Shown piece after piece: positions 9,748 to 48,375 of a stretch of DNA of 64,000 nt. This DNA comes from an uncultured Schlesneria sp. (GTDB lineage: Bacteria; Planctomycetota; Planctomycetia; Planctomycetales; Planctomycetaceae): positions 1-64,000 of the forward strand of contig CAIULL010000254.1 of the NCBI GenBank assembly GCA_903899985.1, read 5' to 3'. Position numbers and translations under genes: made by a program. Below the pieces are notes generated by a model. The model was not told the origin of the DNA. It saw only the letters and a program-made list of their open reading frames with translations, and did not search any database. The stretch's first letter is position 1; every line of letters begins with the position of its first letter.

Positions 9748-10248
9748 ATGTCATTACGGTCAAACGAACGTCAGCTGGTCTGGTTATTATTCGGAATTAT
9801 TGGCGGACTTTGTCTTGCCTACTTCTGGCCGCATGAGCATGTTCTGGCAAGTGCGACGGATCGCGATGCAAAATTCGCAATCTGCACGGTTGAAGTCGGC
9901 GCTGGGAGTCCTGACGCGGTATTTGTCCTCGACTTCACCACAGGTCGGTTGCAAGGGGGAATGCTGAATCCTCAGGCTCAAGCCTTTACGAATTTCTGGT
10001 TCGCCAACGTTGCTCAGGATTTCAAGGTCGGAAAGAATGGAAAATACACAATGATTCCCGGGAGTGGACTCTTGAATGCACCAGCAGGGGGGGGCGGCGG
10101 AGCCATCGCGTCGGGAGTGATCTACATCGCTGAAGTTACAACGGGAATGGTCGGCTGCTATCGATTCAGCTACGTGAACTCGCCACAGCCATTGCCACCC
10201 AGTCCGTTGCAGCCTGTGGATGTTTTCCCCTTCCGCGAATCGAAGTAA
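9748..10248 (+). CDS. Membrane-anchored hypothetical protein
   Basis: 166 residues, not recognised. A single hydrophobic segment at about residues 10-26 (VWLLFGIIGGLCLAYFW) suggests an N-terminal anchor or uncleaved signal. The rest is a small beta-rich domain (FAICTVEVGAGSPDAVFVLDF), a GGGGG run in the middle and a proline-rich C-terminus (PQPLPPSPLQP). AAGGA about 7 bases before the ATG supports the start. It is divergent from mnmG and has its own strong hairpin behind it, so it is probably a single-gene transcript. Confidence 0.7.
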   Translation: MSLRSNERQLVWLLFGIIGGLCLAYFWPHEHVLASATDRDAKFAICTVEVGAGSPDAVFVLDFTTGRLQGGMLNPQAQAFTNFWFANVAQDFKVGKNGKYTMIPGSGLLNAPAGGGGGAIASGVIYIAEVTTGMVGCYRFSYVNSPQPLPPSPLQPVDVFPFRESK

Positions 10249-10290: not shown

Positions 10291-10326
10291 TGATCTTGTT
10301 TGCGTCTCACTGGATCGCAAGTCATC

Positions 10327-10498
10327 GTTTAACCGCGCCTCGCAGAGAAGCGAGTCGTGCGGGGTCGCTGACGAACCCGAGGCGTCATTGAGCGTTTGAC
10401 TATTGCCGTCGTCTTTCACATTGTTGGAAGACGCTCGGCAACATTCGAAGAGATCGGCTGAACGCCGATCAGCCTGCGCCGATGGCTGCGGGTTAAAC
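10327..10498. repeat. 172-bp repeat with inverted ends, copy 1
   Basis: Starts GTTTAACCGCGCC and ends CTGCGGGTTAAAC, so the tips are near-perfect inverted repeats. The inside contains short hairpins such as CGCAGAGAAGCG-like and GGCTGAACGCCGATCAGCC. A near-identical copy follows after 18 bases. On the minus strand it reads open for about 57 codons, giving a protein-like but spurious string. Confidence 0.85.
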
Positions 10499-10516
10499 GA
10501 CGAATCTGTTTTCATC

Positions 10517-10688
10517 GTTTAACCGCGCCTCGCAGAGAAGCGAGTCGTGCGGGGTCGCTGACGAACCCGAGGCGTCGTTGACCGTTTGGCGATTGCCGTC
10601 GTCTTTCACATTGTTGGAAGATGCTCGGCAACGATCGAAGAGATCGACTGAACGCCGATCAGCCTGCGCCGATGGCTGCGGGTTAAAC
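10517..10688. repeat. 172-bp repeat with inverted ends, copy 2
   Basis: Same length, same orientation and about 95 percent identical to the copy at 10327-10498 by eye, offset by exactly 190 bases. The 18-base spacer between the two and the short GAATCTGTTTTCATC-like flank suggest tandem duplication of a unit larger than the repeat itself. Confidence 0.85.
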
Positions 10689-10730: not shown

Positions 10731-12833
10731 TCACTTCGACGCGGGTTTCGAAGAACTCAACGGATTTGGAGCGGGCTTCAAGCCCCAAATGCTGAAGAAC
10801 CAGCGCGCGGGTATGGTTGTGTCACGTTCGATCCATCGCGCATCCGGGGGCAAATCCGGGATTTCAATTTCAGTCAGGGGTGTTCCGTTTGGTGAAAACT
10901 CCGCAGCTGCCACCAAATCTTGATGGCCCTCAGTGATCCCCAATAATTCACCAGTTGTCACGCTCCAACGAGCAACCCGCCCCTGACGATCCGCGCTGAT
11001 CAATGACTCGCCATCGGCCCGAAAAGCGACCGAGGCTGCCGGCGAATTCCAATTCATGGAAACCCGCTCATTCCCGCTGTGGAACTCGATCAATGCGATT
11101 CGGCCCGAATCAGGTGTCAACCAGTCTCCGGTTGCCACGGCGAGTAATTCGCCGTCCGGAGAAAATCTCACGCAGTTCACTGGTCCCAATTCGCGTGGTA
11201 ATTCGCGAACTGGATGATCGCTGTTCCGATTCCAGATCCGGACGATTCCATCGCGACCTCCCGTCACCATCCAGTTTCCATCGGAAGAGATATCAATCGA
11301 CTTCGCCGAGCCGCTGGGTATCTGCCAGTCACGAGTCGCCTGACACGTTTCCGCATCACACAAAAAAATTACCCCTTCCGCCCCGATCGCCACGAATTCG
11401 GACGTGTTTTGGGCAAACGAGATTGCTTGTAATCCAAGGTGATTTAAACTGAATTCATGCCCCGTTTCCAAATCGAATAAGCACTGGTTTGATTGGTTTC
11501 CAATTACCACAAATCGCCCATCCATCGAATGCGATCGAATTTCTGACCCGCTCCACGAAGATTGCGTTTTCGAGTTTTGGATCGAAATCGGTCGCTCGGC
11601 AAGCCAAGCTTCAGACGGCCCGCCAGCAGCGGAATCAAATGCGACAGGAACCAATGGAGCCAGCTTAACCTGCGGCTGATGTGTCGACTGGCTCAATTGC
11701 CGAGCGGTCTGGCTTATTGGAGGACGAGCGGCGAGCCACGACGGCTGAAGTGGCAGAGCACACGCCAGCAAAAGGCAAATGAATCGACCGCAATAGCCAA
11801 AGTCCTGACGCCGAGGACCACGCATGATCCACGTTAATCGTTGACGAAGGAAGGGGACTTGACCCAGACCCGTGGCCAGTGCCGGCATTCGCAATGGGCG
11901 TTCAGCAATAAAATCCACTACTTCGAGAATGGCTTGTGCATAACGTTTGGGAACTTCAGGCGAGGCCGCGACAACCATCGCGTCGCAACACTCCTCCTCG
12001 ACCGACTCGATTTCGCAACGAGCCCACCAGACGACGGGATGCCACCAGAAAAAACCCGTTGCCAGCAGTTCAACCACTCGTACCCAATGGTCACGACGCC
12101 GATAATGAGCCAATTCGTGCATTAACAACGTCCCTGTGGCCGAGTCGTCCAGCCGGTCAAGTAACCGTTCAGGAAAAATCAGAAATAATGATTGCCCGCT
12201 CCCCCACAACATCGGGGACATGACACCCGGCATCAGCCAGACTGTCGGCGAATACGGCAAACCCATTCGACGCGCCAGACGGTCCGCGAATCGCTGAAGG
12301 TCCAGACACGCAGCATCGCCATGCCTCAATGACCAGCGAAACCTGACGCAGCGAATTCCCTGAATCACAAACCACACCAGTGCGCCAACGGCCCAGACAA
12401 CCAGCACAACGGCCATCAACGCTTGCCGAAAGTTTTCACTTCGAATCCAGCTTGCGGCGACCGTACTGAATGAGCGTTTTGAAGCGTTCAGTTGCTTATC
12501 GATCTCTGCCAGCGTTCTGGGGCGGGATTTCAATTTCGCCAGATTCTGGTTTGGTAACTCATCTGGCACGAACGATCGACGTGAACCGAACTCGATCTGA
12601 CCGACGTCGAAGATGACCCGGGGAAGCAATTGTCGAGATGTTGAGACCACCCAGTCACGGTCGATTAACGGGATCTGCCAGATCGGCGGCATCACAAGTT
12701 TGATAAGAATCAGCACCCACAAAAAATGGGTCAGTGCTGGACGGCGAAAAACCCGTCCGAAGGACTCGGCGACCAGCGCGAGCGGGACAATCATCAGCGC
12801 ATTGATGAGTGCGATCTCGAGGTACGAAAGCAC
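10731..12833 (-). CDS. M56 (BlaR1/MecR1-like) membrane metallopeptidase fused to WD40 repeats
   Basis: 700 residues. Hydrophobic segments near 5-21, 34-56, 138-158 and 351-370 match the BlaR1 membrane architecture. The zinc motif HELAH is at 239-243 and the third-ligand region EIESVEEECCD at 284-294. Where BlaR1 has a penicillin-binding sensor, this protein has WD40-type blades from about residue 420 (SIDISSDGNWMVTGGRDG, CVRFSPDGELLAVATGD, AASVAFRADGESLISADRQG). It lies 86 bases behind a BlaI-type repressor gene, the classic sensor-protease/repressor pairing. The signal sensed by a WD40 periplasmic domain is unknown. Beta-lactam sensing is not supported. Confidence 0.88.
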   Translation of the reverse strand: MLSYLEIALINALMIVPLALVAESFGRVFRRPALTHFLWVLILIKLVMPPIWQIPLIDRDWVVSTSRQLLPRVIFDVGQIEFGSRRSFVPDELPNQNLAKLKSRPRTLAEIDKQLNASKRSFSTVAASWIRSENFRQALMAVVLVVWAVGALVWFVIQGIRCVRFRWSLRHGDAACLDLQRFADRLARRMGLPYSPTVWLMPGVMSPMLWGSGQSLFLIFPERLLDRLDDSATGTLLMHELAHYRRRDHWVRVVELLATGFFWWHPVVWWARCEIESVEEECCDAMVVAASPEVPKRYAQAILEVVDFIAERPLRMPALATGLGQVPFLRQRLTWIMRGPRRQDFGYCGRFICLLLACALPLQPSWLAARPPISQTARQLSQSTHQPQVKLAPLVPVAFDSAAGGPSEAWLAERPISIQNSKTQSSWSGSEIRSHSMDGRFVVIGNQSNQCLFDLETGHEFSLNHLGLQAISFAQNTSEFVAIGAEGVIFLCDAETCQATRDWQIPSGSAKSIDISSDGNWMVTGGRDGIVRIWNRNSDHPVRELPRELGPVNCVRFSPDGELLAVATGDWLTPDSGRIALIEFHSGNERVSMNWNSPAASVAFRADGESLISADRQGRVARWSVTTGELLGITEGHQDLVAAAEFSPNGTPLTEIEIPDLPPDARWIERDTTIPARWFFSIWGLKPAPNPLSSSKPASK

Positions 12834-12875
12834 AGCGCCCTCCGGCCCGAAGGTCAGCGATGTGAATTATGAACA

Positions 12876-12904
12876 GGGCCGGGAACAACGCTTATTCCCG
12901 GCCC
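12876..12904 (-). terminator. Hairpin between the BlaI and M56-WD40 genes
   Basis: GGGCCGGGAA (12876-12885) pairs with TTCCCGGCCC (12895-12904) in the 86-base gap inside the putative operon. No T-run follows on the minus strand, so it could attenuate or stabilise the mRNA and lower M56 expression relative to BlaI. Confidence 0.55.
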
Positions 12905-12919
12905 AAAACTGCGATTTGA

Positions 12920-13309
12920 TTAACGGCCTTTTTCTCGATCCAGATCATCGAGTAGGTCACGCAACGAACCAAGTTGATCTTCACTGAGTTTGGCTTTGAC
13001 CAGATGAGACAGCAACGGCGCCAGCGATCCCTCACACAACTTGTCAGCGGTGGCCTGCAACCGACGACCGATCAGCTCTTCACGATCAATCTTCGGCTCG
13101 AACATGTGTGGCCAGGGCTTGCGGTCACGTTTGACGAACTTTTTCAGTTCCAGCCGCTCTAACAGTTTTTGTACGGTGGCGTAGTGGGCACCAGTACCAC
13201 CAGGGTAAAGCGTGTCTGTCAGATCGCGGACAGTCGTTCGACCTCGCTCCCACAGCAGGTTGATGACCGCTAACTCCGCGTCGGTAATGTCTTGCGGTGT
13301 TCGTGCCAT
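12920..13309 (-). CDS. BlaI/MecI/CopY-family transcriptional repressor
   Basis: 129 residues, normal for the family. A winged helix at about residues 8-75 (LTDAELAVINLLWERG-like start, then GAHYATVQKLLERLELKKFVKR) is followed by the helical dimerisation tail (LSHLVKAKLSEDQLGSLRDLLDDL). Such repressors bind operators as dimers and are cleaved or displaced when a partner M56 protease is activated. The M56-WD40 gene directly downstream fits that role. GGGCGAG lies about 7 bases before the ATG. Confidence 0.93.
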   Translation of the reverse strand: MARTPQDITDAELAVINLLWERGRTTVRDLTDTLYPGGTGAHYATVQKLLERLELKKFVKRDRKPWPHMFEPKIDREELIGRRLQATADKLCEGSLAPLLSHLVKAKLSEDQLGSLRDLLDDLDREKGR

Positions 13310-13352: not shown

Positions 13353-13382
13353 AGGATAAGACGCGATGTCTCCTAAAGTCAA
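13353..13382 (-). promoter_or_regulatory. Candidate sigma70-type promoter of the BlaI-M56 operon
   Basis: On the minus strand TTGACT (13382-13377) is followed 18 bases later by TATCCT (13358-13353), about 45 bases before the BlaI start codon. The spacing and hexamers are acceptable. No clear BlaI-type palindromic operator is visible next to it. Confidence 0.4.
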
Positions 13383-16922: not shown

Positions 16923-17070
16923 ACAGTCAAGACTTAAAGTTCGGGTTGTGTGCCACTGCATCGGAGTCTTCGGAGACGCAGTGTCTTCTCTTTTTTTCGA
17001 GACAATCGAAGAACACTGGGTGACCGAAGACGGTCATCCAGTGGCACCCGAATCTTTAGCTTTGACTGTG
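16922..17070. repeat. 149-bp palindromic element with CACAGTCAA/TTGACTGTG ends
   Basis: Perfect 9-base inverted ends (16922-16930 and 17062-17070) continue as an imperfect long stem, with TTCGGG / CCCGAA and TGCCACTG / CAGTGGCA pairs. Inside are smaller hairpins (AGTCTTCGGAGAC and GACCGAAGACGGTC). It ends two bases before the stop codon of the M56-SurA-like gene, so the gene's terminator may be supplied by it. Confidence 0.7.
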
Positions 17071-17072
17071 CA

Positions 17073-19655
17073 TTAGTCCTTGCGATAGATAGGCGACGAG
17101 TTCGTCGATCCCTCGTTCGAGCCGCCGGATGGTCCCTCGTCGTAAAACTTGGGCAATGAGTATTGCGTCTCGATCTTCGCCGTTGAAAAGACTTCTCTCA
17201 TGAACTTCTCTGCGCAAGTTTGCCTTTTCTTAACGTCCAACTTCTGGCGAATTTGGTCCTGAACTTCAGCGAGTGCCTTTCGGCTGCCCTCTTCCCGAGC
17301 AGTCACGCGAACCAAGGAGTACGTGGTTGCTTTCCCGCTGACTTTACTCCATTGATTCAATGGCATCGAAAACAATTGCGATTCGAGTTCCGCATCTTTG
17401 AGACTCGCCAGCGGCAATCTGCTATAGGAATATTTTGAATATCTCGGATCAATCTTTTTGCGTTCGAAGGGGTCGCTGTCGTTGAATTCAACGAGCAAAT
17501 CGTCGAGTCTTTTTGTCGCTTCGGCATCGCTTAGTTCGGGTGAAATCGACAGTGCAATCTCCTGCCAAGATACCGTCTTCGGAATGCTAAACAGGTCAAC
17601 ATGTGAGTCATAATAGGCCGCGATCTCGGGCGCCTCCGTCGGTGTCAACGAGTCCGCCTTCGCCACGAAACATTCAGTGGACAATCGATCGAGCGTAAAA
17701 CTCTCTTTTACCTTTTGTAATGTCGATCCCTTTGTCTTCAGCTCGCGTTCAAGTTCTTCGATTGTCGCGACGTGGAGCTCTTGCTTGAGTCGATCGCACT
17801 GTTTCTCAAAGAGCTGATCAATGTGCCGATTCGATTCAACGATCTGATATTGTGTCAAGCCCGACATCATGTGTTGCACGAGGGCGACCTTTTGAATGTA
17901 ACTGGCAATATCTCGTTGAATCAATGTGCGGCGGAACTTGTCGAAATCGTCGCGGGTCGGTATCGGTTGTCCCGGTGGTGTCTTGCTCGGCTCGCCTGCC
18001 ATCGACAGCATTTGCTCACGAACGCTGATGAGATAACCGGCATAACGATCGAGGATCGCCCCGTTAAGAATGGGTTGGCCATTGACTGTCGCAGCGACTG
18101 CCGCGTTGAATTCCTCCGTGTCGTCTTTCCAATTGGCCCATTCGATCGGTTTCCGTTTACGGGGCGATTGCATTCGCTGAGTCGTCCACGCATCCAACGG
18201 CTGTTGTTTTGGATCAAATTTCGAGACTTGCTGATAATAGCCGTCCGCTTGAATTTGTAAGTTGATTTCGTCAGCTGAACGGCACGTGACGTCACCAACA
18301 GAAATTTTATAAGAGCCGTCGCTGTCCGTCGCAGCCGTCCACTCGATTTTGTCAAAGGGATTATTCGATCGATAGATGCTGAGTGTGACGTTCGCATCGC
18401 GCAGGGCATCGCCGTTTTCATCGGTAACGAATCCGCTGATTGTCTGTGGCAGTCGCATGAGTTCTGTGGCGTTCTGCGCGTCATTTGGTTCGATCATGTC
18501 GGGCTGATTCGAGGCCTCGACTGCCAATCGCGTTGATTTCGGCGGCGGCACTCGTACGGTCAACATGCCAACGACGATGATCCCGAGCGCGCACGTTGCC
18601 ATTCCAACCACCAGTGCGTCTCTGATTCGACCGGATCTTGAGTGCGGCTCTGTTTTAAATTCATTGATGTCGTGTAGGCGTCGGCGGAGCGACGACCGCT
18701 GTGCCATCGCCATTCCAAGTGCAATTGTCGGGACGTGAGCAGAACGAGCCGCGATTCGAACCAAGGCCAGCGCATATGCGTCTCGGCCAAGCGACCGGGA
18801 ACAGAACTGATCACAAATTCGTTCCCGAAGAATTTCGGCCTCTCGGCGAACGAACCAGGCGAGCGGGTGAATCCAATACAGCGTCGCCATGCACTGAGTC
18901 ATGACCTGCCAGAAAAAGTCACCGTTTTTGATATGCGTCAATTCGTGAATCAGGATTGCGTCTCGCTCGATTCGATCGCTGGAAATCAGGCAGTCGTGTG
19001 GAACGAGGATTACCGGTTTTCGCCATCCGAACGTGAGGGGAACCGAGCAAGAATTGGAAACTCGTAATTCAACATGACGCCGTACACCAAGCGATCTTGT
19101 CCAATGTCCCAACGATTCCAGCCAATCCGCATCGGCGACAACAGAACTTGACCGCTTCAGAAGTTGAAGTCCACGCCACGCTCCGATGAACCGCACGATC
19201 AACACGCTGAGAAAAAATCCGTAGGCTAGCGCGAGGCCAGCAATCAGAATCTTTTTCAACGAAAATCGTCGAATGACCGGTGTAGCGGAAGCCGTCGTTG
19301 CTGGAATCCTGGGGGTGACGTTCAACGCTTCAAAACCGACGTCTGACAAAAGGGTTAGCGGATCAATTTCATGGGGAAATATTTGGGCGTGCGGCGGAAT
19401 CGGCTTCTCTGAACCGGTCGTGTCGTGTCTGACACGATTGGAATTCGGGGAAGGGGAGAGCACCGGAATTTCAATTGGCGGGAGGCACCAGGCCGCCATC
19501 GGCAAAATCAGCAATGCCACCACTCCGACTCGTTTCCAGGCCATACAGGAGTACGCCCAGTAACGGCCCGCAATGTAGGCCAGTACCGTAACAATTCCCA
19601 GAATCAACGTCGATTTGCATCCGATGGAAAGAAACGCGGCCTGAAGATCCGTCAT
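17073..19655 (-). CDS. M56 membrane metallopeptidase fused to a carboxypeptidase-regulatory domain and a SurA/parvulin-like region
   Basis: 860 residues. N-terminal membrane part has hydrophobic segments near 10-30, 43-58, 135-158 and 350-368, with the zinc motif HELTH at 237-241 and EAEILRERICDQFC downstream. Residues about 405-480 (ISGFVTDENGDALRDANVTL to DSDGSYKISVGD) form a carboxypeptidase-regulatory-like beta domain. Residues about 520-835 resemble SurA/PpiC chaperones: VNGQPILNGAILDRYAGY, a long helical stretch, then a parvulin-like core (SIPKTVSWQEIALSISPELSDAEATKRLDDLL to YSLVRVTAREEG). The start overlaps the BlaI-type gene's stop (ATGA), implying coupled translation. The tail should lie outside the cytoplasm. 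Parvulin catalytic residues could not be judged by eye. Confidence 0.85.
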   Translation of the reverse strand: MTDLQAAFLSIGCKSTLILGIVTVLAYIAGRYWAYSCMAWKRVGVVALLILPMAAWCLPPIEIPVLSPSPNSNRVRHDTTGSEKPIPPHAQIFPHEIDPLTLLSDVGFEALNVTPRIPATTASATPVIRRFSLKKILIAGLALAYGFFLSVLIVRFIGAWRGLQLLKRSSSVVADADWLESLGHWTRSLGVRRHVELRVSNSCSVPLTFGWRKPVILVPHDCLISSDRIERDAILIHELTHIKNGDFFWQVMTQCMATLYWIHPLAWFVRREAEILRERICDQFCSRSLGRDAYALALVRIAARSAHVPTIALGMAMAQRSSLRRRLHDINEFKTEPHSRSGRIRDALVVGMATCALGIIVVGMLTVRVPPPKSTRLAVEASNQPDMIEPNDAQNATELMRLPQTISGFVTDENGDALRDANVTLSIYRSNNPFDKIEWTAATDSDGSYKISVGDVTCRSADEINLQIQADGYYQQVSKFDPKQQPLDAWTTQRMQSPRKRKPIEWANWKDDTEEFNAAVAATVNGQPILNGAILDRYAGYLISVREQMLSMAGEPSKTPPGQPIPTRDDFDKFRRTLIQRDIASYIQKVALVQHMMSGLTQYQIVESNRHIDQLFEKQCDRLKQELHVATIEELERELKTKGSTLQKVKESFTLDRLSTECFVAKADSLTPTEAPEIAAYYDSHVDLFSIPKTVSWQEIALSISPELSDAEATKRLDDLLVEFNDSDPFERKKIDPRYSKYSYSRLPLASLKDAELESQLFSMPLNQWSKVSGKATTYSLVRVTAREEGSRKALAEVQDQIRQKLDVKKRQTCAEKFMREVFSTAKIETQYSLPKFYDEGPSGGSNEGSTNSSPIYRKD

Positions 19656-20029
19656 GGTTTGCGTCCTTGCTTAAATTGTTGGATCAGATCCTGCAGATCG
19701 GCTGCGGAAAGTTGCTCTTCTTCCAGAAGTCGCAACACAAGGTCTTGCGGAGAACCGGAAAAGAACCGGCGAATGACGTTGCTCAACGTCTTCTGCTGGA
19801 CCTTTTCCCGTTGAATCACCGGTCGATAAACGAAGCTTCGCCCGTTACGCTCATGGCTGACAAAGCCTTTTTCTTCGAGGATTCTCAGCATGGTTCGAAC
19901 CGTGGAATCGTGCGGTTCGTCAGGCAACGTCATGCGGATCTGTTCCGCAGACGCCGTACCGAGTTCCCAAAGCCGACTCATGATCTCGGCTTCGCGTTCG
20001 GTCAAACTATTGGCAGGTGTCGGTTCCAT
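19652..20029 (-). CDS. BlaI/MecI/CopY-family transcriptional repressor
   Basis: 125 residues from the ATG at 20027-20029, chosen over a longer frame to 20089 because family members begin near SLTEREAEIMSRLWELG and AGGA lies just upstream. The winged helix includes STVRTMLRILEEKGFVSHERNGRSFVYRP, followed by the helical dimerisation region (TLSNVIRRFFSGSPQDLVLRLLEE). The stop overlaps the M56 gene start by four bases, so the two are translated together as a repressor/protease pair. It is divergent from the LolD-like ATPase at 20245. Confidence 0.93.
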   Translation of the reverse strand: MEPTPANSLTEREAEIMSRLWELGTASAEQIRMTLPDEPHDSTVRTMLRILEEKGFVSHERNGRSFVYRPVIQREKVQQKTLSNVIRRFFSGSPQDLVLRLLEEEQLSAADLQDLIQQFKQGRKP

Positions 20030-20095
20030 CAGTCGTCCTGTTAGTGTTTTAACAGTTCGGATGGTATTCACAGAGTCGTTTCGGATCAAGGGAAG

Positions 20096-45825: not shown

Positions 45826-48375
45826 TCAATCGATATACATGAACTCGTTCAGATTAAGAACTGCTCGACACAGATCGCGCAGTGCCAATAATTCCGCTTG
45901 ATCCTCAGCACCATCGATCCGATGTTGATCGGTATGGCGACGGAGGAGATCCAGGCAGATCGCTTTTTCTTTCGCGTCGGGGGATCGGCTTAGCGCTCGT
46001 TGAAACAAGACTTCGACTCGTCTATCTGAATCGTGACCAGTCTCTTCAGCCACTCGTTCTGCCAGGATCGACGCAAAGCGAATGGATTCAGGACTGTTGA
46101 ACAACATCAACGCTTGAGGCGCCACAACAGTCGTATCACGGCGAGCACACGAAACCGTCGTGTCAGGAAGGTCGAAAGCTTGCAGGAACGGAATCGGCAT
46201 CGCTCGTTTGCGGACGAGAAACACACTGCGGACATCCGTTTCTTCAACGGGATCTTCGTACCAGCCTTGCATCCGCCCCCCGTCCCCGCCGTCCTTTGCT
46301 TCTAGGATTCCCGGTTGAGCATGCAGTAAATCGATCGGCACATTCGGCCAGCGTGGCTTGCCCGAATCGGCTGACTTCAATGCGCCGGATACCGAAAGCA
46401 AACTGTCACGCAACGTCTCGGCATCAAGACGAACAACGTTTTGTCGCCAAAGCAGCCTGTTTTCCGGATCTTTTTCCTGATTGCGGCCATTGTCATGCGA
46501 CCCCATATCAGGACGAGTTGCATTGCTGGTTTGCCGATAAGTCGCAGAACAGACGATCGCACGATGCAGTTTCTTGATCGACCACCCATCGTTGATAAAA
46601 GCGATGGCAAGCCAGTCGAGTAACTCGGGGTGTGTCGGCCGCGCGCCACTAAAGCCAAAATCATTTGCAGTCGCGACAAGCCCCACTCCAAAGTGATGCT
46701 GCCAGACGCGGTTGACCAGCGTTCGAGCTGTCCACGGATTTTCCGATGAGGCAATCCAGTTGGCCAACGCCAGCCTACGGCCCGTCGTATCAGCTCGGGG
46801 TGGTTCGATCGTTGCCGGATTTGGATCAAGAACCGAGACGAATCCGGGTGGAACTTCTTCGCGCGGTTGCGAAAAGTCACCTTGATAAAACACATGCGTC
46901 TCCGGAGCTTCCGCACCGGAATCGGTCGCTCCCATGGCCATACGGGTCGAACGTTTCTTCGTTTCGATCTGGGCGATCGTTTTACTGAGTTCGTCGTATC
47001 GAGGCTGATCCTCGCTCTTGTCCTTATCCAGCTTCGACTGTTCCTCTTTCAGCGGTGCCGACTCTTCATCAACTGCGGCGTTGTGCCTGGCGATCTCTTC
47101 CAGATCATCAGCCAATTCAATCACCAGATCGTTTCGAGGAGTCACACCCGCGAAGAACGCCCGCAGGCGAAAGTGGTCAGCCTGTGAGAGCGGATCATAC
47201 TTATGATCATGACATTGGCAGCACGAAAAGGTTAATCCCAGAAAGGCCGAACCCGTTGTGTTTGTCAGGTCTGCCAATTGCTGGTCCCGATGTCGAACTT
47301 CTTCCTGGAAAATCGGGGCGGTACTGTCCCATTGGCCCAGTCTCAAGAATCCCGTGGCAATTAACTTGTCGGCTTCATTAGCGTTCTTCGCCGGACCATC
47401 AACGAGCTCGTCCCCAGCGAGTTGCTCTCGAATGAACTGGTCATAGGGCTTATCCTGGTTGAACGAGCGAATGACATAATCGCGGTATTGCCAAGCTAAT
47501 GGCCGGTATTCATCACGTTCAAATCCTTCGGTATCGGCATAGCGAACAACATCGAGCCAATGTCGCGCCCAACGCTCGCCATAACGTGGGGAATCCAACA
47601 GTCGGTCGACCAGGTTTTCGTACGCGTTTGACGATGAATCCTCAACAAAACTTCGCACGTCATCGGGTGTCGGCGGCAATCCAGTCAGGTCAAAACTCAA
47701 TCGACGGATTAAGGTTCGTTTGTCCGCTTGAACTGAAGGAACGATCCCCGCATCAGTCAGGCGTTTTCGGATTAACCAGTCGATCAATCCAGGAGCGAGG
47801 TGTTGTACTGATTCCGCAGCCAGACCCTCGGGCCCCTTGAAACACGATTCATCAATCACTGGCTTTTTTAAAGACCACAAGTCGAGTCTCTCACCGCCAA
47901 ATATTTTTCGAATCGGGTTGTTCGCATCGGTAAAAGCATTCCCCATTGGTATGGCTTGCCGTGATTCATCTTCGACAGGCAGCATCGCTTGCACAGGCCA
48001 ATAAGCTCCCGACTCGACCCAGTGTTCCAGAACTTTGATTTCCCGGTCTGACAGCCGGGACTTGGGTGGCATCTGCAAGTCAGGATTTCTGAACCGTACG
48101 GCTTCAATCAGTCGACTTTTCGCGAGATCCCCGGGGATGATCGCAGGCCCGGTATCGCCCCCACGCTTTGCTGCCGTCAGCGAATCAAGTCGTAAACCAC
48201 CTTCTTGCTTCTCCACACCGTGGCAGGAAATGCATTTCGATTGAAGCAGTGGTTGAACGACTTCGACAAATTCTTTGGTTTTTATGTCTTCATTTGCGAA
48301 CACGAACGTCGATGAAAACACGAACGCTGCAACGAGCGAAATGGTGTGATGACGGTTGAAGCACTGATGTTTCAT
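45826..48375 (-). CDS. Planctomycete cytochrome c-type (PSCyt1) / DUF1549 / DUF1553 protein
   Basis: 850 residues from the ATG at 48373-48375; a start at 48396 is possible. Signal peptide about 1-28. The N-terminal PSCyt1 domain has the haem-c site CISCHG and a distal methionine region (LQMPPKSRLSD). DUF1549 follows (LIRRLSFDLTGLPPTPDDV, then RYGERWARHWLDVVRYADTEGFERDE) and DUF1553 is C-terminal (RLALANWIASSENPWTARTLVNRVWQHHFG, YRQTS). It is the first gene of a two-gene operon with the DUF1501 protein. A link to polysaccharide breakdown is proposed in the literature but not shown here. Confidence 0.95.
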   Translation of the reverse strand: MKHQCFNRHHTISLVAAFVFSSTFVFANEDIKTKEFVEVVQPLLQSKCISCHGVEKQEGGLRLDSLTAAKRGGDTGPAIIPGDLAKSRLIEAVRFRNPDLQMPPKSRLSDREIKVLEHWVESGAYWPVQAMLPVEDESRQAIPMGNAFTDANNPIRKIFGGERLDLWSLKKPVIDESCFKGPEGLAAESVQHLAPGLIDWLIRKRLTDAGIVPSVQADKRTLIRRLSFDLTGLPPTPDDVRSFVEDSSSNAYENLVDRLLDSPRYGERWARHWLDVVRYADTEGFERDEYRPLAWQYRDYVIRSFNQDKPYDQFIREQLAGDELVDGPAKNANEADKLIATGFLRLGQWDSTAPIFQEEVRHRDQQLADLTNTTGSAFLGLTFSCCQCHDHKYDPLSQADHFRLRAFFAGVTPRNDLVIELADDLEEIARHNAAVDEESAPLKEEQSKLDKDKSEDQPRYDELSKTIAQIETKKRSTRMAMGATDSGAEAPETHVFYQGDFSQPREEVPPGFVSVLDPNPATIEPPRADTTGRRLALANWIASSENPWTARTLVNRVWQHHFGVGLVATANDFGFSGARPTHPELLDWLAIAFINDGWSIKKLHRAIVCSATYRQTSNATRPDMGSHDNGRNQEKDPENRLLWRQNVVRLDAETLRDSLLSVSGALKSADSGKPRWPNVPIDLLHAQPGILEAKDGGDGGRMQGWYEDPVEETDVRSVFLVRKRAMPIPFLQAFDLPDTTVSCARRDTTVVAPQALMLFNSPESIRFASILAERVAEETGHDSDRRVEVLFQRALSRSPDAKEKAICLDLLRRHTDQHRIDGAEDQAELLALRDLCRAVLNLNEFMYID

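Follow-up and report, generated by a model that had tools for sequence, protein, structure and literature searches.

The BlaI-BlaR1 and MecI-MecR1 systems of Staphylococcus are the nearest described counterparts of a gene pair, encoding a BlaI-family repressor and an M56 membrane protease with a WD40 tail (M56-WD40), that lies in 64,000 nucleotides (nt) of DNA from an uncultured Schlesneria sp. (contig CAIULL010000254.1, positions 1 to 64,000; this whole stretch is referred to as the window). In Staphylococcus, linked genes encode the repressor and a zinc membrane protease of family M56 whose C-terminal domain is extracytoplasmic, and both systems are autoregulated. BlaR1 of S. aureus has an Nout-Cout topology with its C-terminal domain extracytoplasmic, and direct cleavage of BlaI has been shown (PMC9834060, in excerpt). 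In Synechocystis, the BlaI-family regulator PetR is placed under the BlaR1-family protease PetP and the signal is not an antibiotic (commentary PMC7896320). The copper repressors CopY and CopR belong to the same repressor superfamily as the BlaI studied here and have a dyad with a similar ACA..TGT core (PMC7253601, in excerpt). Lastly, a transcriptional regulator, the extracytoplasmic function (ECF) sigma factor RB10049, has been proposed for a DUF1549/DUF1553 gene, the PSCyt2/PSD1 gene RB10051 of Rhodopirellula baltica (PMC2754498, in excerpt).

The planctomycete pair differs from the staphylococcal systems in that (i) a WD40 propeller replaces the penicillin-binding sensor, (ii) the predicted operator is AGACANNNTGTCT rather than TACA/TGTA (PMC7253601, in excerpt), and (iii) the predicted targets are DUF1549/DUF1553-DUF1501 genes and genes labelled A3, instead of beta-lactamase or PBP2a. 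It differs from PetR-PetP, where the signal is copper and the targets are plastocyanin and cytochrome c6, and a WD40 tail is not mentioned in the commentary (PMC7896320). The dyad spacing is 3 instead of the 2 of CopY/CopR and the partner is a protease, whereas RB10051 was linked to an ECF sigma factor rather than to a BlaI repressor with a protease. No publication describing this system was found in literature listings on M56 with WD40 or propellers, BlaI/BlaR1 in planctomycetes, and BlaI with MoxR. We consider it fairly probable that BlaI and M56-WD40 act together as a BlaR1-like proteolytic switch that represses its own operon and a DUF1549/DUF1553 promoter, with the propeller as sensor. 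The new element is the output side, namely a predicted clade-wide operator with predicted DUF1549/DUF1553 targets.

The blaI and M56-WD40 gene pair

The features of the pair are as follows.

12920 to 13309, minus strand: BlaI-family repressor gene (129 amino acids, aa); Pfam Penicillinase_R PF03965, E = 1.4e-22
10731 to 12833, minus strand: M56 membrane metalloprotease with WD40 tail (700 aa, GTG start); PF05569, E = 7.8e-28, and PF00400, E = 1.5e-14; aligned to seven relatives
12105 to 12119, minus strand: HELAH zinc motif, residues 239-243, intact, with downstream glutamates E279/E280
11727 to 11783, minus strand: predicted fourth transmembrane segment (TM4), residues 351-369, between the predicted cytosolic protease and periplasmic tail; hydropathy and positive-inside count
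10869 to 11546, minus strand: WD40 propeller region, residues about 430-655, about five modelled blades; Pfam, AlphaFold2 model, Foldseek and VIA-align

The window corresponds to contig C254 of a genome (G000) of 8.0 Mb, and the nearest named relatives of the locus are Schlesneria metagenome-assembled genomes. BlaI scores 80.7 bits against Penicillinase_R (cut-off 22.6), which places it in the BlaI/MecI family, and it is 94-100% identical to its counterparts in five Schlesneria relatives (L001-L005). Against the CopY equivalog TIGR02698 it reaches 45 bits with a cut-off of 121.95, and no CxC occurs in its 129 aa, so it is not classed as CopY/TcrY. The M56-WD40 gene lies 89 nt 3' of blaI on the same strand. 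Peptidase_M56 covers residues 8-306 of its product (97.9 bits, cut-off 31), and the HExxH motif and downstream Glu ligand that define an M56 peptidase are present: H239, E240, H243, E279 and E280 are invariant in 14 aligned M56 domains and likewise in the alignment labelled A1. When the PDB was searched with the M56 profile, the cryo-electron microscopy structures of BlaR1 (8exs and 8exp; E = 8.6e-6 and 3.1e-5) were the sole matches at E ≤ 0.01. No penicillin-binding domain was found in M56-WD40 among the Pfam families listed (25 of 31) or with NCBIfam, which sets it apart from the beta-lactam sensors BlaR1/MecR1; the NCBIfam model blaR1_generic matched the protease part only (54 bits, cut-off 400).

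The tail carries WD repeats (PF00400, 54.2 bits, cut-off 27) and is predicted to fold as a propeller. The AlphaFold model of the whole protein is of low confidence (mean predicted local distance difference test, pLDDT, 57), with propeller blocks at 66-87, and the modelled propeller matches WD40 structures in Foldseek and VIA-align (VIA Z about 22 over about 215 residues). Instead of seven blades, its 19 strands of at least three residues make up about five. Four hydrophobic segments are present in the protein. Lysine and arginine together average 5.8 in the 25 aa before TM4 against 2.0 in the 25 aa after it, measured in the 20 of 27 homologues with a segment over threshold on both sides (L003, L010, L076, L099 and L130 were left out of the test); in four of the 20 (L007, L082, L084, L097) TM2 was taken for TM3, and there only the contrast before and after TM4 is to be relied on. 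A later segment over threshold followed TM4 in none of the 27. Because these residues are enriched on the protease side of TM4 and the tail holds no further transmembrane segment, the protease is predicted to be cytosolic and the propeller periplasmic, as in BlaR1. A periplasmic tail is also supported by the other M56 tails of the same genome, since these are envelope domains: a PPIC-type peptidyl-prolyl isomerase (PPIase; 17073-19655 in the window), four POTRA domains (L057, contig C18), LTXXQ (L056, C188) and a secretin-like domain just under the cut-off (L055, C87). ExbD, listed below among the M56 tails, is another envelope domain. No BlaI match was found within 983 nt upstream of L055.

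The blaI gene is co-conserved with the protease gene. With M56-WD40 as the query, 54 loci were found; in 50 of them blaI lies directly 5', and in the remaining four the M56 gene is within 118 nt of a contig end. WD40 tails occur in 11 of these 54 loci, all with blaI directly upstream, which is the linkage of a BlaI-BlaR1 type switch. After removal of duplicates (L130, L076, L099), 30 distinct M56-WD40 loci were retained; the 19 beyond those 11 consist of the window and of loci retrieved by way of BlaI or operator matches, so that linkage there is partly by construction. From the BlaI side, a family-level search matched 54 of 120 genomes, and 56 of the matches were fetched; the four nearest Schlesneria copies and the weakest rows were not among them. 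Of these 56, 50 had a complete or partial M56 gene in the stretch and six had none (L074, L079, L083, L094, L115, L124). Two of these six BlaI relatives, L074 and L079 (about 80% and 74% identical), stand beside an aminotransferase gene or one encoding a squalene-hopene-cyclase-like domain, in stretches without the dyad described below. Of the five M56 genes over the cut-off in the window's own genome, four stand next to a BlaI gene.

The tails attached to this pair vary widely. The smallest WD40 tails consist of a single short propeller, and at the other extreme a 1740-aa form (L009) has 16 WD40 stretches; two M56-WD40 genes (L010, L012) are broken over several frames through sequencing error or decay. 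Among the representatives scanned, M56 tails comprise WD40, PD40/HEAT, ExbD, HlyD, carboxypeptidase-regulatory repeats, kinds without a Pfam name, and no tail. In a tree of 73 M56 domains the WD40 label requires seven changes (bootstrap range 7-8), at least four of them forced by well-supported branches, with gains and losses not told apart. This tree kept four of 23 rows with Phycisphaerales tails and dropped L095 (cut by a contig end), the long branches L054, L098 and L090, and the deep rows win_17076, L056, L057 and L119_5567.

Together, the tail census and the tree support the view, put forward in the original prediction, that domains have been shuffled on a common BlaI-M56 chassis. The same prediction had placed a BlaI plus M56-WD40 pair at 10731-13309, correctly; all three domains score over their Pfam cut-offs. 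It had also held that a cytosolic WD40 region, or a blaI gene not co-conserved with the protease, would speak against it; the predicted topology and the gene counts given above went its way on both points.

A shared candidate operator and its predicted targets

Upstream of blaI, the following elements are predicted.

13359 to 13371, minus strand: predicted BlaI operator AGACATCGCGTCT; conserved dyad upstream of blaI in the clade, an island of conservation
13377 to 13382, minus strand: predicted -35 box TTGACT of the blaI promoter; from position and the offset of a TTGACA-like box
13353 to 13358, minus strand: predicted -10 box TATCCT of the blaI promoter, placed by position; the 18-nt spacer holds the dyad

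The predicted promoter thus reads TTGACT-N18-TATCCT with AGACATCGCGTCT inside the spacer. The consensus operator AGACANNNTGTCT was found at no more than one mismatch within 150 nt of blaI for 55 of the 83 BlaIs of at least 40% identity (39 of 61 at 50% or above, 16 of 22 at 40-50%). No BlaI of lower identity has it (0 of 27), and its rate in random windows is 1.6%; rows of the same identity and site were merged, and BlaIs with less than 100 nt upstream were excluded. It occurs in the clade of this repressor under many M56 tail types. Palindromy exceeds that of shuffled sequences at the outer core position ±6 and in the flanks at ±7 and ±8 (0, 3 and 1 of 2000 shuffles), and in 34 of the 72 sites a match of at least 5/6 to TTGACA begins 10 or 11 nt ahead of the dyad. 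The conserved position of the dyad before blaI is the basis on which autoregulation is predicted. Symmetric variants (AGGCA..TGCCT, GGACA..TGTCC, AGTCA..TGACT) stand upstream of blaI in some paralogues (L104, L111, L127, L123), which suggests insulated repressor-operator pairs. Another dyad, at 16974-16986 of the window, does not rise above chance and has no -35 box at the right distance.

The operator embedded in a promoter was then sought beyond blaI. In 297 genomes of the class, 32 sites were found against 2 for the reversed control. The 30 that were fetched comprise 19 before blaI, 3 before DUF1549/DUF1553 genes, 2 before A3 genes and 6 before none of these, and one of the two unfetched sites ends 87 nt before a BlaI match. 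A looser pattern matched 27 times in 15 genomes of the genus Schlesneria, with the reversed control at 15. Of the 27 sites, 9 lie before blaI, 12 before DUF1549/DUF1553 genes ("PSCyt2-PSD1"), 1 before an A3 gene and 5 before none of these, with A3 the second gene behind one of the five. Autoregulation alone was favoured at first and was dropped once this looser scan revealed the DUF1549 sites, the earlier patterns having been too narrow. The pattern AGACATNNCGTCTTA gave one site in 8 of the 15 genomes. In the window's genome, the promoter pattern at up to two mismatches gave seven sites against two for the reversed control. The site at blaI is an exact match; the six others have two mismatches each and were set aside after an unsystematic look at their surroundings.

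The second site in the window's genome (G000:C258:16289-16311) lies 64 nt before a PSCyt2-PSD1 gene, which is followed by DUF1501 and an EF-hand protein. Across nine genomes, conservation at the DUF1549 site is 1.00 from the -35 box to the dyad and 0.94 in the dyad against 0.50-0.53 in the flanks, forming a conserved island. In five other genomes (L164, L165, L166, L201, L202), the cluster behind the site extends towards DUF58 and BatA genes; four of the five clusters include MoxR, three include A3 and two a DUF4175-type gene. These gene kinds were assigned by similarity to scanned L202 proteins, and L164 has intervening open reading frames (ORFs) on the opposite strand. One further promoter-operator (L169:4944-10628, genome G005) precedes a gene for an 1895-aa protein, whose first 499 aa have no Pfam match, with an A3 gene directly behind. 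On this evidence the BlaI and M56-WD40 switch probably controls some DUF1549/DUF1553 exported proteins.

Proposed mechanism and competing explanations

Domains, gene order, predicted topology, the clade-wide operator and the conserved second targets were computed; binding of BlaI to the dyad, its cleavage, the sensing role of the propeller and the ligand are what we infer. In the proposed mechanism, BlaI would repress the blaI-M56 operon by binding to AGACATCGCGTCT in the -35/-10 spacer of the blaI promoter, and would likewise repress the promoter at G000:C258:16289-16311 before the DUF1549/DUF1553-DUF1501-EF-hand cluster. The periplasmic propeller on TM4 would report an envelope ligand or partner protein, and the signal would activate the cytosolic HELAH zinc protease. 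BlaI would then be cleaved and both promoters freed. These steps are drawn by analogy with BlaR1, for which direct cleavage of BlaI has been shown (PMC9834060, in excerpt). A conserved ATGLGQ stretch (residues about 320-325), picked out by aligning the M56 profile with the BlaR1 structure, is our guess for an autocleavage loop. In relatives, genes for A3 proteins and for A4, a protein with a predicted caspase fold, belong to the same operon.

The least secure part of this scheme is the propeller's role as sensor, given the nearly tail-less relatives. The tail could instead be a passive scaffold or oligomerisation module, with M56 sensing through its own membrane segments or a separate protein, an explanation that we regard as possible but rather unlikely. 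M56 relatives with tails of 17 aa (L020/L081) and 46 aa (L077) keep blaI and the operator at one mismatch, and one with 6 aa (L116) keeps blaI, though its best dyad has three mismatches. The tail is therefore not essential to the BlaI-M56 pair, as L020 and L116 show, and PetP has been proposed to sense copper via copper-dependent protease activity (PMC7896320). Substitution rates bear on the question in both directions. Against L001 and L002, non-synonymous divergence (dN) rises from 0.003 in BlaI to about 0.07 in M56 and 0.14-0.20 in the tail, with synonymous divergence (dS) of 0.4-1.2, and across L001-L003 BlaI has a dN of at most 0.003 with a dS of 0.38-0.49. By these estimates the repressor barely changes while the tail evolves fastest, as a passive module might. 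However, the tail looks to be under purifying selection, with a dN/dS of about 0.16-0.2 in comparison with L001 and L002 and of 0.35 in the partial L003 tail; moreover, it sits where the BlaR1 sensor sits, and many envelope-domain tail types recur at the same point. A decayed gene, which the short propeller had brought to mind, is ruled out by the same dN/dS and by a C-terminus that is kept in close relatives.

Less probable still, though worth weighing, is that the dyad belongs to a different regulator controlling blaI and the DUF1549 genes, with BlaI acting elsewhere. One genome (G003) has the DUF1549 site with no BlaI match at E ≤ 1e-15, and binding of BlaI to the dyad is itself predicted. 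On the other side, the dyad follows BlaI identity, with the 40% boundary described above. Its distance to blaI is similar from site to site and a -35 box stands at a constant offset from it, an arrangement usual for autorepressor sites.

A classical BlaR1-like sensor of a beta-lactam or cell-wall antibiotic was rejected as very improbable: the BlaI and M56 families are present, but a transpeptidase-like sensor domain is absent from the families listed, and no beta-lactamase or penicillin-binding protein was seen among the genes annotated behind the examined operator sites (Pfam scan of representatives only).

Several further observations count against the switch with DUF1549/DUF1553 targets. 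The looser genus pattern has a sizeable background, as its 15 control hits indicate, and the 12 DUF1549 sites are not 12 events, since nine of them appear to be a single orthologous promoter. BlaI and the DUF1549 site occur together in 10 genus genomes; three (G002, G009, G013) have BlaI alone, one (G003) the site alone and one neither, and this co-occurrence is not statistically telling. The propeller is short, at about five modelled blades, and both of its ends are poorly modelled (pLDDT below 50). The window's genome has 72 DUF1549 matches, so few can be under a AGACANNNTGTCT-type operator. Twenty-eight of the 83 BlaIs above 40% identity have no dyad at one mismatch, and the palindrome can mislead, as it did for CopY, where a 10-base box was a poor predictor and palindromes over-predicted (PMC7253601, in excerpt). 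With these points weighed, the BlaR1-like switch with a propeller sensor is still the reading that we favour.

The second pair, partner genes and wider meaning

A second BlaI-M56 pair, a separate system, lies elsewhere in the window.

17073 to 19655, minus strand: second M56 sensor with a CarboxypepD_reg-like and PPIC-type PPIase tail; PF05569, E = 5.2e-27, and PF13145 (Rotamase_2), E = 2.9e-8
19652 to 20089, minus strand: second BlaI; PF03965, E = 5.2e-33; 29% identical to the first BlaI

The CarboxypepD_reg match (31.2 bits) is just below the cut-off of 32.3. The second BlaI lacks the AGACANNNTGTCT operator, its best match having four mismatches. A recent local duplication was ruled out, as the BlaIs are only 29% identical and the M56 proteins are far apart; duplicates L130, L076 and L099, together with L003 and L081, were dropped before the M56 distance comparison and the dyad-symmetry analysis. 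The suggestion that the locus holds a family of one-component-like signalling systems therefore stands only in part: the second pair is real, but the pairs are old and do not make a local family, and BlaI with M56 is a two-protein relay rather than a one-component system. The BlaI-M56 family spreads across planctomycetes.

In relatives, A3 genes, A4 genes or both lie within 3 kb downstream of M56-WD40 at 12 of 25 evaluable loci (A3 and/or one A4). These 25 are drawn from the 30 WD40 loci, five (L001, L003, L082, L086, L093) being excluded for having less than 1.5 kb downstream; L010 has less than 1 kb but shows A3. A3 has no Pfam match in five proteins scanned and no PDB match at E ≤ 1, and by the look of their N-termini these proteins would be secreted. 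A4 genes with EF-hand-like motifs stand behind M56-WD40 at L005:8170-9087, L007:9870-10856 and eight other loci. The predicted A4 fold is that of a metacaspase/legumain (Foldseek E = 6.5e-8; template-modelling score 0.47 by query and 0.53 by target; model pLDDT 64), and by sequence the PDB match to a metacaspase is weak (E = 0.35). In this fold a His and a Cys form the dyad. The His is invariant in eight aligned A4 members, while the position presumed to be the Cys, itself assigned from the alignment, is Cys in one of the eight (L005). The only A4 relative found in the window's genome (L133:1162-2244, G000:C187) is located behind a GATase1-like gene. It retains IGHG...INCASASG and so might be an active peptidase of clan CD.

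The window itself has no A3 or A4 ORF. Between M56-WD40 and a plus-strand ORF at 9748 it holds a 177-nt direct repeat (10322-10498 and 10512-10688, 95% identical), which occupies the place where relatives L004 and L005 hold A3 or A4 genes. One of the genome's 72 DUF1549 matches is also in the window (47143-47784).

Beyond this locus, we tentatively propose, at somewhat less than even confidence, a wide planctomycete BlaI-M56 family with interchangeable periplasmic sensors (WD40, POTRA, LTXXQ, PPIase, ExbD, HEAT or none), in which one repressor clade with a common operator would regulate PSCyt2-PSD1/DUF1501 modules as well as a caspase-fold protein and the MoxR-DUF58-BatA-A3 genes that follow some of the modules. 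DUF1549/DUF1553 proteins are highly repeated and little understood in planctomycetes. Sigma-E and Cpx are the envelope-stress systems with which such a family would be compared, and if the proposal is true, it would amount to an envelope-surveillance network based on repressor proteolysis instead of sigma-E or Cpx. R. baltica has 41 copies each of DUF1549 and DUF1553 (PMC2754498, in excerpt). Knowing the repressor, its predicted 13-bp operator and the linked protease would give a direct way into how these modules are switched, and the BlaR1 architecture would appear as a general signalling chassis in which the sensor is swapped while the repressor and operator stay fixed.

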